From positions 1 to 32,649 of the IMG/VR virus record IMGVR_UViG_3300044846_000283: a stretch of 32,649 nt of DNA. One strand, 5' to 3'. Positions 1-32,649 of this stretch are shown here, piece after piece. A program made the position numbers and the translations under genes. The notes under the pieces are model-generated. The model did no database searches. It saw only the letters and a list, made by a program, of their open reading frames with translations, and was not told the DNA's origin. Positions within the stretch are counted from its first letter, which is position 1, and the number at the start of each line of letters is the position of its first letter. Source of the DNA: a virus.

Positions 1-115
1 AACAACTGACATTAAATCAAACAATCAAGCTGATAAGGGATATTGCCCAAAGCCACGACCAAATTAATACGGTCTATTTTGGCGATGTGTGGGAGTTTCT
101 TTCTCAGCCTGATAA
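1..115. repeat. Terminal direct repeat, left copy (circular overlap)
   Basis: Bases 1-115 are identical to 32535-32649. A single exact repeat at the two ends of a contig is what an assembler gives for a circular or circularly permuted molecule, and an open reading frame continues in phase across the join. The unique length is therefore 32,534 bp. A true physical terminal repeat is less likely, because the repeat lies inside a coding region and has no flanking signals. Confidence 0.95.
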
Positions 116-7689: not shown

Positions 7690-7770
7690 TCTTTTCATAG
7701 TTAAGTTTTTTGTTAAATAGGTTTAAGTAAATAGAATCCCTATCGGTCATATCGGTGGGGATTTTTGTTT
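7690..7770 (+). ncRNA. Candidate small non-coding RNA between a -7 element and a terminator
   Basis: The interval has no plausible gene. It starts just after TATATTTG and ends in a terminator-like hairpin, so a transcript of roughly 70-75 nt could be made. It holds a small hairpin with stem TTAAA/TTTAA (7713-7717 with 7722-7726) and loop TAGG, followed by the terminator stem. The same TAGG-looped AT-rich hairpin occurs in the RNA at 10494-10576. The large terminator loop carries TATCGGT twice, two bases apart. It could equally be just the 3' end of the upstream operon. Confidence 0.35.
7735..7770 (+). terminator. Rho-independent terminator-like hairpin after the phosphoesterase gene
   Basis: AATCCC (7735-7740) pairs with GGGATT (7758-7763) around a 17-nt loop, followed by a T-rich run broken by one G (TTTTTGTTTT, counting the last two stem T's). 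The stem is short for such a loop, but the position at the end of the late operon and before the early promoter supports termination here. Confidence 0.55.
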
Positions 7771-7812
7771 TATACTACCGTTAAATAAATAATTATAATA
7801 ATTTTATAAAAA

Positions 7813-7845
7813 GTTTTTTTATTTAAAATAATAGGTATATATTTG
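7813..7845 (+). promoter_or_regulatory. Early promoter, Bacteroidota type
   Basis: TATATTTG (7838-7845) matches TAnnTTTG, with a T-rich GTTTTTTT tract (7813-7820) at about the -33 position, 17 bp upstream. A transcript would start near 7850 and have a leader of about 35 nt ending in AAACCAATCAAAAAATG. It would drive the early operon from 7886 onward. Confidence 0.65.
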
Positions 7846-10260: not shown

Positions 10261-10468
10261 ACGTTTAGCATTCCAACTAATTAATCGAGGATACATTAGA
10301 CTTGGAGCAAAGCAGATATTTGAAGTCATTAGATGGCATACAATGGTCGAAGGGAATGATAGATTTAAAGTTAATAATTCATTTACTTCGGACTATGCTA
10401 GGTTATTTGAATCAGAGCATCCAATATATTCAGGATATTTTTCTAAAAGACTTTGTAAATCGGTTTAG
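10202..10468 (+). CDS. Conserved small phage protein, unknown function (88 aa)
   Basis: The product carries a pattern I recognise from many phages (FKKYHQDNPQIYQEFKRLAF..., GAKQIFEVIRWHT, FKVNNSFTSDYARLFESEHP). It is usually annotated as hypothetical and lies near replication genes. It appears to be a compact helical protein. The start ATG follows TTAAACCAA, the leader type seen at other genes. It is the last gene before the promoter and structured RNA at 10452-10576. Confidence 0.78.
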   Translation: MKTSFKKYHQDNPQIYQEFKRLAFQLINRGYIRLGAKQIFEVIRWHTMVEGNDRFKVNNSFTSDYARLFESEHPIYSGYFSKRLCKSV

Positions 10469-10482
10469 TTTTTTTATATTTG
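10452..10482 (+). promoter_or_regulatory. Near-perfect Bacteroidota promoter TTTG-N19-TATATTTG
   Basis: TTTG (10452-10455) and TATATTTG (10475-10482) are 19 bp apart, matching the consensus for the Bacteroidota primary sigma factor (TTTG, 19-21 bp, TAnnTTTG). The -33 box lies inside the end of the previous gene. Transcription would start near 10488-10491, a few bases before the first hairpin of the structured RNA. Confidence 0.8.
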
Positions 10483-10493
10483 AATATAATTAA

Positions 10494-10576
10494 CCAAGAG
10501 GGTCGGAGTTCTTGGGTAATTTAATAGGTTAAATAACCAAAGCCAGTTTTGCACTCCGACGCAGACTGGCTTTTTT
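10494..10576 (+). ncRNA. Structured RNA with predicted kissing loops; leader/attenuator or small RNA
   Basis: Three hairpins follow the promoter. H1: CCAAGA (10494-10499) with TCTTGG (10510-10515), loop GGGTCGGAGT. H2: 10516-10524 with 10529-10537, one A-A mismatch, loop TAGG. H3: AAAGCCAGT (10539-10547) with ACTGGCTTT (10565-10573), extended by an inner TGC/GCA stem, leaving the apical loop ACTCCGAC (10553-10560). The H1 loop bases GTCGGAGT (10502-10509) are an exact 8-nt complement of the H3 loop, so the two can kiss. H3 ends in a T-run 11 bases before the initiator start codon. It may be an attenuating leader or a stand-alone RNA. No Rfam family is recognised by eye. Confidence 0.75.
10539..10576 (+). 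terminator. Terminator hairpin just upstream of the replication initiator gene
   Basis: A 9-bp stem (10539-10547 with 10565-10573) is followed by an uninterrupted T6 (10571-10576, shared with the stem end). The initiator ATG is at 10588. Readthrough is required for the gene to be expressed from the promoter at 10452-10482, which makes this a candidate regulated terminator. Confidence 0.75.
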
Positions 10577-10587
10577 ATTTTTAAAAA

Positions 10588-11313
10588 ATGGCAAAACTAA
10601 AAATTTTAAACAAGTATGCTACCGTTCCAAATGAATTACTGAATGATTCGGTAATATCATTAAAGGCAAAAGGTATGTATGCTTACATTCAATCTAAGCC
10701 TGAGAACTGGGACTTTTCTGCTGAAAGAATATCAAAGCAATTAAAGGAAGGTTTACCAAGTGTTAAGTCAGCATTACAAGAATTAGAACTTAATGGCTAT
10801 CTAGTAAGAAGGAGATTTCAAAATAATAAAGGCTTTTGGGAAGTCGAATATATATTAAATGAAAATCCTGAGATTCAAAATCCTACGGCGGAAAACCTGA
10901 TAGCAGGAAAACCGACAGAGGAAAATCCTATGGTAGGAAAAACGTCAAACAATAGTAATAAAGATTATAGTAATAAAGATTATAATAGTAATAAAGAATA
11001 TAAAGAATATAAAGAAAATCGTTTTGATAATTTTTTTGGAAGTAAAGAGATTACATTAAGAGAAGAAATTTTTAATAAATGGTTTCAGCATAAAAAAGAA
11101 AAAAAACAATCTTATACTCCAAGTGGAAAAAAAGAATTATTAAAAACTTGGGAAAATAAAAGTGACCAAGAATTAGAAATTGCAATTAATCATTCAATAT
11201 CAAATAATTATTCAGGTATTTTTGAACCTAAACAACAATTCAGCAATAATGGAAATACAACTGAGAAACTCGGAACAAGTGCCGCAAGAATGGAAGCCTT
11301 ACGGAAGTGGTAA
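10588..11313 (+). CDS. Replication initiator-like winged-helix protein (241 aa)
   Basis: Residues 1-85 form a winged-helix domain typical of phage and plasmid initiators: YATVPNELLNDSVISLKAKGMYAYIQSKPENWDFSAERISKQ, then a recognition helix and wing (SVKSALQELELNGYLVRRR). Residues 88-145 are a low-complexity linker with repeats (NPTAENLIAGKPTEENP; SNKDYSNKDYNSNKEYKEYKE). Residues 150-241 form a helical DnaD-like C-terminal part (LREEIFNKWFQHKKEKKQSY...). The DNA of the linker contains iteron-like repeats, so the gene may carry the origin, as lambda O does. It overlaps the next gene by 65 bp. Confidence 0.8.
   Translation: MAKLKILNKYATVPNELLNDSVISLKAKGMYAYIQSKPENWDFSAERISKQLKEGLPSVKSALQELELNGYLVRRRFQNNKGFWEVEYILNENPEIQNPTAENLIAGKPTEENPMVGKTSNNSNKDYSNKDYNSNKEYKEYKENRFDNFFGSKEITLREEIFNKWFQHKKEKKQSYTPSGKKELLKTWENKSDQELEIAINHSISNNYSGIFEPKQQFSNNGNTTEKLGTSAARMEALRKW
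10861..11020. repeat. Iteron-like repeat arrays inside the initiator gene; candidate replication origin
   Basis: First array: copies of GGAAAA-CC begin at 10890, 10906, 10920 and 10936 (spacing 16, 14, 16), with a related GAAAATCCT at 10861. Second array: ATAGTAATAAAGA-TA begins at 10952, 10967 and 10985, followed by two AAAGAATAT units up to 11010. The region after it is almost pure A/T. Phage initiators often bind iterons within their own coding sequence, next to an AT-rich unwinding element. Confidence 0.6.
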
Positions 11314-11998
11314 TGCAATTGCAATAAGACAAGCACAAAGCGCTATTGCTTTACGTGTAAGGAACGAAGAAGATATAAAGCAAGCATTACGTTACACAAT
11401 GGTTTTAGTTGGCTTAAGAGGAAACAATTTACCAACTGAAGAAGAAAAGGTTGTATTGACTAATTTTGTTAAGTCAAATTTTGGTAATAATACTTGCGAA
11501 GAAATAAAACTTGCATTTGAAATGGCAGTCGCTGGAAAGCTAAATATTGATTCTAAATGCTATGAGAATTTTTCTTGCGAATACTTTGGTAGGGTTATGA
11601 ATGGTTACCTGGAGTATGCAAGACAAGAGATTAAAAACTTACCTAAACAAATAGAGCCAGTGAAAGAAAAACCTAATGACCAAGAATTAATGAAGCAAGC
11701 AATTGATACGGCTAATGAATATGCTAATCAGATTAGATTCTGCGAGAAGAACGATAAGAAATTTACGTTTATCGCTGGAGGCTTATCAATTCTCTTTGAT
11801 TACCTGGAGCAATTTAAGATTCCAACGATATCAAAAGAAGAACGAATCGAACTTTGGAATAAATATTCTGCCATTCAGGATATTGAAGAAAGGAAGATGC
11901 ATTGCAAAACTCAAGGGTATATTAAATTTATCAATAGTTTAGTTACATTTGATTGTCATATCGATAATGATGGAACTATTAAACCTAATAATATATGA
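11249..11998 (+). CDS. Putative replication accessory protein (249 aa)
   Basis: The start is the ATG at 11249, inside the initiator gene; the frame is open further upstream but that part is low-complexity and unlikely to be coding. Residues about 30-90 carry QSAIALRVRNEEDIKQALRYTMVLVGLRGNNLPTEEEKVVLTNFV, a pattern I know from Bacteroidota phage proteins placed after the initiator. The rest is helical with no Walker motif, so it is not a helicase or loader ATPase. A replisome-recruiting role is inferred from position only. The stop overlaps the methyltransferase start (ATGA). Confidence 0.65.
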   Translation: MEIQLRNSEQVPQEWKPYGSGNAIAIRQAQSAIALRVRNEEDIKQALRYTMVLVGLRGNNLPTEEEKVVLTNFVKSNFGNNTCEEIKLAFEMAVAGKLNIDSKCYENFSCEYFGRVMNGYLEYARQEIKNLPKQIEPVKEKPNDQELMKQAIDTANEYANQIRFCEKNDKKFTFIAGGLSILFDYLEQFKIPTISKEERIELWNKYSAIQDIEERKMHCKTQGYIKFINSLVTFDCHIDNDGTIKPNNI

Positions 11999-13133: not shown

Positions 13134-13295
13134 CAATTAGCAGTAAAATGTAAAATCTGTTTAATGTTATTGTTGATAAAATCCGACATTAAATTAGAAA
13201 ATGTCATACAATGAGGGATATATCCGACAAATTATATCACAAAGTAAATTTATAACTTGACAAATTTAGATAAAAAGTAAATCTATAACTTGACA
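13134..13295. promoter_or_regulatory. Non-coding regulatory region before the second early operon
   Basis: No gene fits here. The region holds an inverted repeat GACATT/AATGTC (13185-13190 with 13200-13205, 9-nt loop), the octamer ATCCGACA twice (13181-13188 and 13222-13229), and a 23-bp direct repeat with copies beginning at 13241 and 13274. TTGACA occurs at the end of each long repeat. No TATATTTG is present, so transcription here is probably driven or controlled differently from the other early operon. Confidence 0.55.
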
Positions 13296-13296
13296 A
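13241..13296. repeat. Paired 23-bp direct repeats (22/23 identical) ending on a start codon
   Basis: The copies at 13241-13263 and 13274-13296 share the pattern AAAGTAAAT-TATAACTTGACAA, with one T/C difference, and lie 33 bp apart (about three helical turns). The second copy ends on the first base of the VRR-NUC ATG (13296). Each copy contains TAACTTG, close to the -7 consensus, so they could be tandem promoters, operator half-sites or a small iteron pair. Confidence 0.7.
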
Positions 13297-17329: not shown

Positions 17330-18598
17330 ATGAATATCACAACAACCAAATTGACCGACATAAAGTCGAATCCAAACAATCCGAGAATAATCAAGGATGA
17401 CAAATTTAAAAAGTTAGTAGCATCGATTAAAGAGTTTCCTCAGATGCTATCTTTAAGACCTATTGTCGTTAACGATGATATGATAGTGCTTGGAGGTAAT
17501 ATGAGATTAAAGGCTTGCAAGGAAGCTGGACTTAAAGAAGTACCAGTAATAAAAGCAAGTGATTTAAACGAAGAACAACAAAAGGCATTTATAATTAAAG
17601 ACAATGTTGGCTATGGAGAATGGGATTGGGATATGCTTGCCAACGAATGGGATGCTGAAAATTTAGTTGAATGGGGATTAGATGTGCCTGTATTTGATAT
17701 TGAAGATTTAGGAAGTGCTGAGGAAGATAATCACGAAATGCCTGAGTCAGTAGAAACTGATATTGTTATTGGAGATTTATTTGAGATTGGTCCACATAGA
17801 TTAGTTTGTGGAGATTCAACTAATAGTGATATTGTTGAAAAATTAATGAATGGTGAAAAATGGAATTTATTAGCGACAAGTCCACCATATAATCAAGGAA
17901 ATGGGACAAGTGATGGGTTTATGCATACTAAAGGAGGGAAAACTACAAAAGGTGTAAGATTGTATGAAGATAAAGATGCTGATAATAGAAGTTCTGAAGA
18001 TTATTATAAATTTTGTATTGATATTTTAACAACTTCTTCAATATTTAAAAATGAAGAAGAACATTCAGTTTGTTGGAATGTAGCATACAATGCAAAAAGC
18101 AGAGATGATTATGGTAAAATTGTTTTTTCAAATGATAATCCATATTCAGTAAAAGAAACAATTATTTGGGATAAAAATCATTCTATAAATTTACCACAAA
18201 TAGGAATTTATTCGAGAAGATGTGAGTTTGTTTTTGTAATGTCCGCAAGTAATAAATATAGAACAAGTCAAATTTATAATGATTGCAGATGGAATTATTG
18301 GCATATTAAATCTTCAGGTTCGCAAATAACCGGAGAAAGTGTTGAACATAGAGCAGCCTATCCAGTTGAATTTGCATCCAAAATGATTACTGATTTTTCA
18401 TTAAAAAATGATTTGATTTATGAGCCATTTACTGGCTCCGGTACAACTATGGTAGCATCACATCAATTAAATCGTAAATGCTACGGAATGGAATTAGACC
18501 CTAAGTATTGCCAAGTAATAGTTGACCGAATGATTAAATTAGACCCAACATTAATAATTAAAAGAAACGGAGAGGTATGGCAAACGAACAAAATTTAG
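17330..18598 (+). CDS. ParB-like/DNA N6-adenine or N4-cytosine methyltransferase fusion
   Basis: This 422-residue protein has two domains. Residues 1-100 form a ParB/sulfiredoxin-type domain (IKSNPNNPRIIKDDKFKKLVASIKEF, VLGGNMRLKACKEAG). Residues 145-405 form an amino-methyltransferase: motif IV TSPPYNQ (183-189) and motif I EPFTGSGTTMVA (365-376). The order IV-before-I is that of beta-class enzymes, and SPPY is more common in N4-cytosine than in N6-adenine enzymes. It methylates DNA, probably to resist host restriction; no cognate endonuclease is present. ParB-methyltransferase fusions are common in phages. The end overlaps the DUF5681 gene by 22 bp. Confidence 0.92.
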   Translation: MNITTTKLTDIKSNPNNPRIIKDDKFKKLVASIKEFPQMLSLRPIVVNDDMIVLGGNMRLKACKEAGLKEVPVIKASDLNEEQQKAFIIKDNVGYGEWDWDMLANEWDAENLVEWGLDVPVFDIEDLGSAEEDNHEMPESVETDIVIGDLFEIGPHRLVCGDSTNSDIVEKLMNGEKWNLLATSPPYNQGNGTSDGFMHTKGGKTTKGVRLYEDKDADNRSSEDYYKFCIDILTTSSIFKNEEEHSVCWNVAYNAKSRDDYGKIVFSNDNPYSVKETIIWDKNHSINLPQIGIYSRRCEFVFVMSASNKYRTSQIYNDCRWNYWHIKSSGSQITGESVEHRAAYPVEFASKMITDFSLKNDLIYEPFTGSGTTMVASHQLNRKCYGMELDPKYCQVIVDRMIKLDPTLIIKRNGEVWQTNKI

Positions 18599-32466: not shown

Positions 32467-32601
32467 ATGCCAAAAGCATTCTCAACCAAAAACATTAATA
32501 AACTAATTGTTTATTTACAACAAAATGGCAATAAAACAACTGACATTAAATCAAACAATCAAGCTGATAAGGGATATTGCCCAAAGCCACGACCAAATTA
32601 A
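32467..32601 (+). CDS. Small hypothetical protein at the circular join (44 aa)
   Basis: The ATG at 32467, seven bases after the connector stop, opens a frame to the TAA at 32599-32601. The product is basic (MPKAFSTKNINKLIVYLQQN, then KSNNQADKGYCPKPRPN). The last 77 bp overlap the start of the 152-aa connector gene in another frame, which is a long overlap for this genome. It fills a gap in a tightly packed region, but may not be real. Confidence 0.45.
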   Translation: MPKAFSTKNINKLIVYLQQNGNKTTDIKSNNQADKGYCPKPRPN

Positions 32602-32649
32602 TACGGTCTATTTTGGCGATGTGTGGGAGTTTCTTTCTCAGCCTGATAA
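32525..32649 (+). CDS. Start of the split connector/neck gene (continues at base 1)
   Basis: The ATG at 32525, after an AT-rich leader (TTTACAACAAAATG), opens MAIKQLTLNQTIKLIRDIAQ and stays open to the window end. Bases 32535-32649 duplicate 1-115, and the phase matches, so the complete gene is 459 bp long on the circle. See the entry at 1-449 for the function. Confidence 0.85.
   Translation, partial: MAIKQLTLNQTIKLIRDIAQSHDQINTVYFGDVWEFLSQPD
32535..32649. repeat. Terminal direct repeat, right copy (circular overlap)
   Basis: Identical to 1-115. When merged, the contig closes to a circle of 32,534 bp with no break in the overlapping gene. Confidence 0.95.

Follow-up and report, generated by a model that had tools for sequence, protein, structure and literature searches.

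The direct repeats that lie inside a replication initiator gene of this viral contig, whose full length of 32,649 nucleotides is here called the window, raise the question of whether they form the site at which replication of the phage starts. A 115-bp direct repeat is present at both ends of the window (1–115 and 32535–32649), indicating that the sequence closes into a circle of 32,534 bp. The comparisons presented here indicate that the phage very probably carries its replication start inside the gene of the protein that recognizes it, a design known from other phages. The features of the locus are collected in Table 1.

Table 1. Features of the initiator locus and its leader (positions in the window)
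Feature	Position	Strand	Details
Bacteroidota-type promoter	10452–10482	+	TTTG at 10452–10455, 19 bp, TATATTTG (TAnnTTTG) at 10475–10482
Structured leader RNA, type A, 90 nt	10487–10576	+	Hairpins 1, 2 (small), and 3 (terminator-like); loop-loop (kissing) helix
Leader hairpin 1	10487–10522	+	Loop GTCGGAGT at 10502–10509
Leader hairpin 3, terminator-like	10542–10576	+	Stem GCCAGT/ACTGGC, loop ACTCCGAC at 10553–10560, then six T
Replication initiator gene, HTH_36 winged helix, DnaD-like/O-like	10588–11313	+	Pfam, PHROG, fold
Winged-helix DNA-binding domain, residues 1–90	10588–10857	+	AlphaFold pLDDT mostly 76–89; HTH_36
Iteron array	10861–10944	+	Six units at 10861, 10877, 10890, 10906, 10920, 10936
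Iteron units in order			GAAAATCC, AAAATCC, GGAAAACC, GGAAAACC, GGAAAATCC, GGAAAAACG
A/T-rich repeats	10952–11020	+	ATAGTAATAAAGA at 10952, 10967, 10985, then AAAGAATAT units
Predicted DNA unwinding element (DUE)	10956–11035		80-bp stability profile
Partner gene, candidate helicase loader	11249–11998	+	Overlaps the initiator end by 65 nt

The six GAAAA(T)CC-type units of the array have a pitch of 14–16 bp, with weaker units at 10861 and 10877 and a degenerate one at 10936, the fourth when counted from 10890. A search of the whole genome (+ strand) with GGAAA[H]{0,2}CC gave just three matches, at 10890, 10906, and 10920, and none of 300 dinucleotide shuffles held three such matches within 60 bp. 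As this motif was picked after the array had been seen, an unbiased count was added, in which 8-mers recurring at 12–20 bp with at most one mismatch were scored in segments across the genome. Segments starting at 10841–10961 took all of genome ranks 1–7, the best of them with a count of 41 compared with 11 at the next best locus. The A/T-rich repeats that follow keep to one frame throughout, at spacings of 15 and 18 bp, and could therefore represent low-complexity linker; a DnaA-trio-like reading of TAGTAATAA within them was rejected, as it is absent from the L007 and L018 groups. The predicted unwinding element adjoining the iterons is 88% A+T; in stability it ranks second lowest among the 80-bp segments of the genome and lowest among those within genes, and at the 150-bp scale the A/T-rich stretch by the array is the least stable of the whole genome. 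The least stable 80 bp, slightly below this element, is the intergenic gap at 7764–7843, which was discarded as an origin candidate since no iterons were seen in it. The initiator gene has 241 codons, and the whole array lies in codons 92–143, after the part for the winged helix and before that for the C-terminal domain. The initial annotation had described iterons, three copies of ATAGTAATAAAGA with AAAGAATAT units, and a neighboring A/T stretch, all within the initiator linker. The iterons are borne out by both the motif search and the 8-mer count, and the A/T-rich repeats, the unstable stretch, and the position in the linker hold as well; the number of iteron units, given as four plus one related unit, is corrected to six.

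The protein encoded around the array is a winged-helix initiator of the DnaD-like/HTH_36 family, of the TP901-1 type. Its N-terminal domain scores 25.6 bits against Pfam HTH_36 (curated cut-off 25), its PHROG matches are 186, 428, 4221, and 678, named DnaD-like helicase loader, replication initiation protein, and O-like, and the predicted fold of the protein most resembles the N-terminal portion of primosomal DnaB from Geobacillus (5wtn, E 1.3e-3). Residues 97–154, coded by most of the array, have AlphaFold pLDDT values below 50. A search with the winged helix matched 248 phage records, among them that of TP901-1 Rep, which is 46% identical over 67 residues to the winged helix of the initiator. 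Comparison of two relatives, L004 and L022, gives identities of 99% for the winged helix, 84% for the iteron linker, 42% for the middle domain, and 100% for the tail, which indicates exchange of the C-terminal domain by recombination in the linker. With the origin placed in the linker, the binding domain and its cognate iterons would move as one unit. The C-terminal tail, NGNTTEKLGTSAARMEALRKW (11249–11313), is kept despite the middle-domain swap; the same stretch also encodes, in a different frame, the first residues of the partner protein.

A linker that is of low complexity (ENP/GNP, N/K/Y-rich) could also produce DNA repeats as a mere by-product of codon choice and tandem duplication, in agreement with the many in-frame units of the L007 group and with the A/T repeats, all of which are in frame. 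We regard this explanation as very improbable, because out-of-frame, inverted, and three-frame repeats exceed those of synonymous shuffles, codon choice tracks the DNA unit, and unrelated initiators in the same operon have 11-bp iterons, which are unable to stay in frame. For the comparison of DNA with protein 50 viral relatives were fetched. In the window, GGAAAACC is read in two frames, as GAA-AAC-CTG and as GGA-AAA-CCG, and in L044 the unit CCCAGTGCAAAA occurs in all three frames. Out-of-frame repeats exceeded synonymous-codon shuffles in the window (p = 0.016) and in L004, L009, L011, L018, L021, L022, L029, and L044 (p = 0.002), as did inverted repeats in L006, L035, L038, and L045 (p < 0.01), with p = 0.004–0.01 over L035, L036, and L038, although these p values, like the counts below, overstate independence because the relatives share ancestry, for which the shuffle p values are uncorrected. 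The last three relatives carry the inverted unit AGGTTTTCC, where the protein motif has changed from GNP-type to RGFP-type and the DNA site is kept. The inverted, three-frame, and palindromic (L006 and L040) arrays count as cases apart from one another. The codons used also match the DNA unit: Asn before Leu is encoded by AAC in 18 of 18 cases against a background of 27%, Gly before Asn or Lys by GGA in 58 of 61, and Gly in inverted units by GGT in 4 of 4. The iterons of L007, L010, and L012 are all in one frame, and those of L019 are weak. Taken together, these patterns indicate that selection acts on the repeat DNA, so that the direct repeats within the initiator gene are under constraint at the DNA level. 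Protein-level repeats retained over unrelated DNA repeats, which the initial annotation had named as the outcome that would speak against an origin, are the opposite of what was found, the DNA unit being kept across frames and strands while the protein varies.

Comparison with known systems places the locus closest to the TP901-1 and Tuc2009 replicons, which have experimental support. According to PMC8965321, TP901-1 ORF13 and Tuc2009 ORF16 (Rep2009) bind direct repeats in their own genes, and these repeats are the origin; the homologous winged helix and the in-gene direct repeats are shared with our locus. An A/T-rich, N/T-coding stretch 3' of the repeats is a further likeness, whereas the repeats of TP901-1 are on the opposite strand (TTTTCC) and the 3' neighbor gene is another one in both phages. 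The homologous initiator gene of phiJB has an annotated rep_origin at the equivalent place, in a region made up of CGGAAAACGGAAAAACGGAAAACCG and then ACTAATAATAATAGTACTAATAATG. The group of Staphylococcus phages phiJB, 80, and phiETA has the HTH_36 winged helix and GGAAAA repeats followed by N/T-coding A/T repeats, but a DnaC-like loader gene comes next and the C-terminal domain is a different one (PF09524 in the phiJB record). Of the 18 homologues inspected, most that belong to phages of Firmicutes and Bacteroidota show GGAAAA-type units, and repeats of another kind occur in three from actinobacterial phages. Four GGAAAA(T/C)CC units are seen in the closest cellular relative, which is probably a prophage of Cruoricaptor ignavus. 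Phages of two phyla thus share the GGAAAA iteron core, which can stand in either orientation, and the putative origin represents a well-supported Bacteroidota example of a known design. Lambda O and ori-lambda, to which the locus had been likened at the outset, also place iterons and an A/T-rich tract midway through the initiator gene (PMC7466680), and the in-gene arrangement of that parallel stands, but the closest relative is TP901-1/Tuc2009 Rep and not lambda O. The units differ from those of lambda in sequence, length, and pitch, with 8–9-bp cores at a pitch of 14–16 bp here and longer, different iterons printed in PMC7466680, and a weak O-like PHROG match (678, E 1e-11) is the only sign of a relationship to lambda O. 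A repeat-plus-DUE origin within an initiator gene is likewise found in SPP1 (direct repeats and DUE of oriL in gene 38, encoding gp38; PMC6316719), which differs in that it has two origins and encodes a DnaB-type helicase itself. The proposal of a candidate origin inside the initiator gene is accordingly strengthened by DNA-level selection and by homologues in which an in-gene origin is reported (TP901-1, PMC8965321) or annotated (phiJB).

The repeats might instead serve as an autoregulatory operator for the expression of the initiator, with the origin elsewhere, given that a winged-helix protein binding within its own gene could repress that gene and that the genome offers alternative repeat or A/T-rich sites at 13226–13296 and 7764–7843. 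This is improbable in our judgment, as the iterons adjoin a DUE-like stretch, which is origin architecture, homologues have the origin at the same place (PMC8965321; phiJB annotation), and the promoter, with an RNA element of its own, is ~400 bp upstream of the array. The intergenic repeats at 13226–13296 were rejected as an origin because only some close relatives keep them and they lie directly before another gene, that of a VRR-NUC protein. This 33-bp repeat, AAAGTAAATCTATAACTTGACA, is kept in L022, L028, L041, and L003 and is replaced by another repeat in L029; it is a possible operator or promoter. The GC-skew check of the closed circle suggested in the initial annotation was run and proved uninformative, speaking neither for nor against the origin: the cumulative skew climbs throughout without any minimum because nearly all genes are on the + strand.

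We therefore favor, with high confidence, the reading of the array as the replication origin of the phage, located within the initiator gene, at which the N-terminal domain would bind, the A/T stretch open, and host DnaB be loaded. In the sequence of events that we infer, the winged-helix N-terminal domain would bind the GGAAAA(T)CC iterons at 10861–10944 at their 15-bp pitch, cooperative binding would open the adjoining A/T-rich 10956–11035, the C-terminal domain together with the partner protein encoded downstream would load the DnaB helicase of the host, whose replisome would then take over; the structured leader RNA, which ends in a terminator-like hairpin, probably limits expression of the initiator. 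Recruitment of the host replisome is likely but indirect. In lambda, the initiator gene is followed by a loader gene and the host replisome is used. The initial annotation saw no polymerase or helicase in this phage, and none turned up in a scan of 29 early, middle, and packaging ORFs, a set that took in neither the tail genes nor the smallest ORFs. The simplest role for the partner gene is that of a candidate loader of the host helicase. It lies 3' of the initiator in nearly all relatives, and in relatives with a matching leader its slot can hold a DnaB helicase (PF03796, E 1e-61). The partner protein gave no Pfam match and no PDB fold, PHROG 26016 (unknown function) being the sole family match and uncharacterized phage proteins the sole matches by fold, and it shows neither a DnaC/DnaI-type ATPase nor another known loader fold.

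The leader RNA is the part of the locus without a match to anything known. Of 28 distinct leaders, 24 are preceded at 2–5 nt by TAnnTTTG, compared with 0.044 expected per 51 nt, and transcription is predicted to start at the leader. The loops of hairpins 1 and 3 (GTCGGAGT and ACTCCGAC) are complementary over 7–9 nt, and the terminator-like hairpin, which a simple terminator scan did not list, ends 11 nt before the initiator ATG. For type A (nine distinct sequences), 93.9% of cells are paired over the 33 pairs counted, and 15 pairs are changed on both sides as compared with 1–3 in slid controls, including three co-varying pairs in the loop-loop helix; a second sequence type (ten sequences), with the same loop-loop arrangement but other stems and loops, is 94.3% paired and has 12 co-varying pairs, these values being biased in favor of the structures, which were drawn from the very sequences scored. 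The excess of co-variation over the slid controls argues against an artefact. The fold of the window's leader is 4.3 SD below shuffles (z −4.3), and the predicted structure is well supported. Neither leader type matches Rfam, with nothing near any gathering score, and the leader is apparently an undescribed conserved, folded RNA.

Control of the timing of replication start is a likely role of the leader, which we infer to act as an attenuator or replication-control RNA. Our confidence is evenly divided on whether it represents an undescribed class of phage regulatory RNA, combining a kissing loop with a terminator-like stem under its own promoter and setting the level of the initiator that follows. 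A simpler view, that the leader amounts to a terminator for the gene before it, with some decoration and no regulatory role, would fit its place between two genes and the terminator-like stem at its end; it is unlikely, as a terminator has no need of a kissing loop, the promoter motif lies just 5' of most distinct leaders, and the loop-loop helix co-varies in both unrelated sequence types. For a regulatory leader, the terminated RNA might act in trans on nascent leaders, and the existence of two types with several loop specificities, exchanged apart from the initiator, is somewhat reminiscent of plasmid incompatibility RNAs. The repZ leader of ColIb-P9 also has an RNA pseudoknot ahead of a replication initiator (titles cited in PMC10724649), but it switches translation and is paired with an antisense Inc RNA, whereas the phage leader has a terminator-like stem and no antisense RNA was noticed for it. 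HK022 putRNA is a two-stem RNA of ~70 nt 3' of an early phage promoter; the accessible part of PMC9378689 describes no kissing loops for it, and the phage leader differs further by its own terminator-like stem. If replication is under the control of the leader, phages would have in it a counterpart of the replication-control RNAs of plasmids, with loop specificities that might bear on superinfection interference.

The distribution of the leader is consistent with an element that heads the operon. Each of the six whole phage records that match leader model R1 contains it once, strong matches to R1 and R2 in protein-selected loci lie just 5' of the initiator, and in L041–L043 an R1/R2 match is found 5' of an initiator C-terminal match. 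A search of 296 genomes of Cruoricaptor's order with the leader models, run without a positive control, gave no match. Including further leaders found by DNA-pattern scans, the leader occurs, in its two sequence types, before five initiator classes; apart from the HTH_36 type, it precedes Lin1244_N initiators with tandem 11-bp CAACGACCGTT units (L123 and L101), a PHROG 270 initiator with CAAAGCA units (L087), a PHROG 6251/1701 replisome organizer (L127), and a divergent Lin1244_N protein (L128). With five initiator classes at one operon position and iteron-like repeats in the representatives examined, the in-gene origin looks recurrent. In some phages a small ORF or an HNH-type nuclease gene (the latter in L087, L092, L094, L111, and L119) separates leader and initiator, which indicates that the leader belongs to the start of the operon and is not tied to one particular gene. 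The initiators of L004 and L005 are nearly identical and their leaders are of type A and type B, respectively, from which the leader is judged to be exchanged independently of the initiator. Together with the C-terminal domain swap between L004 and L022, this indicates that the leader, the binding domain with its iterons, and the C-terminal domain are separate units of exchange. Elsewhere in the genome, a ParB-like N-terminal part and a DNA methyltransferase are fused in one ORF at 17330–18598 (PHROG 498 and 620), and a 93-bp tandem repeat of 1.8 copies lies at 822–992 within a large ORF that may be a tail fiber gene.
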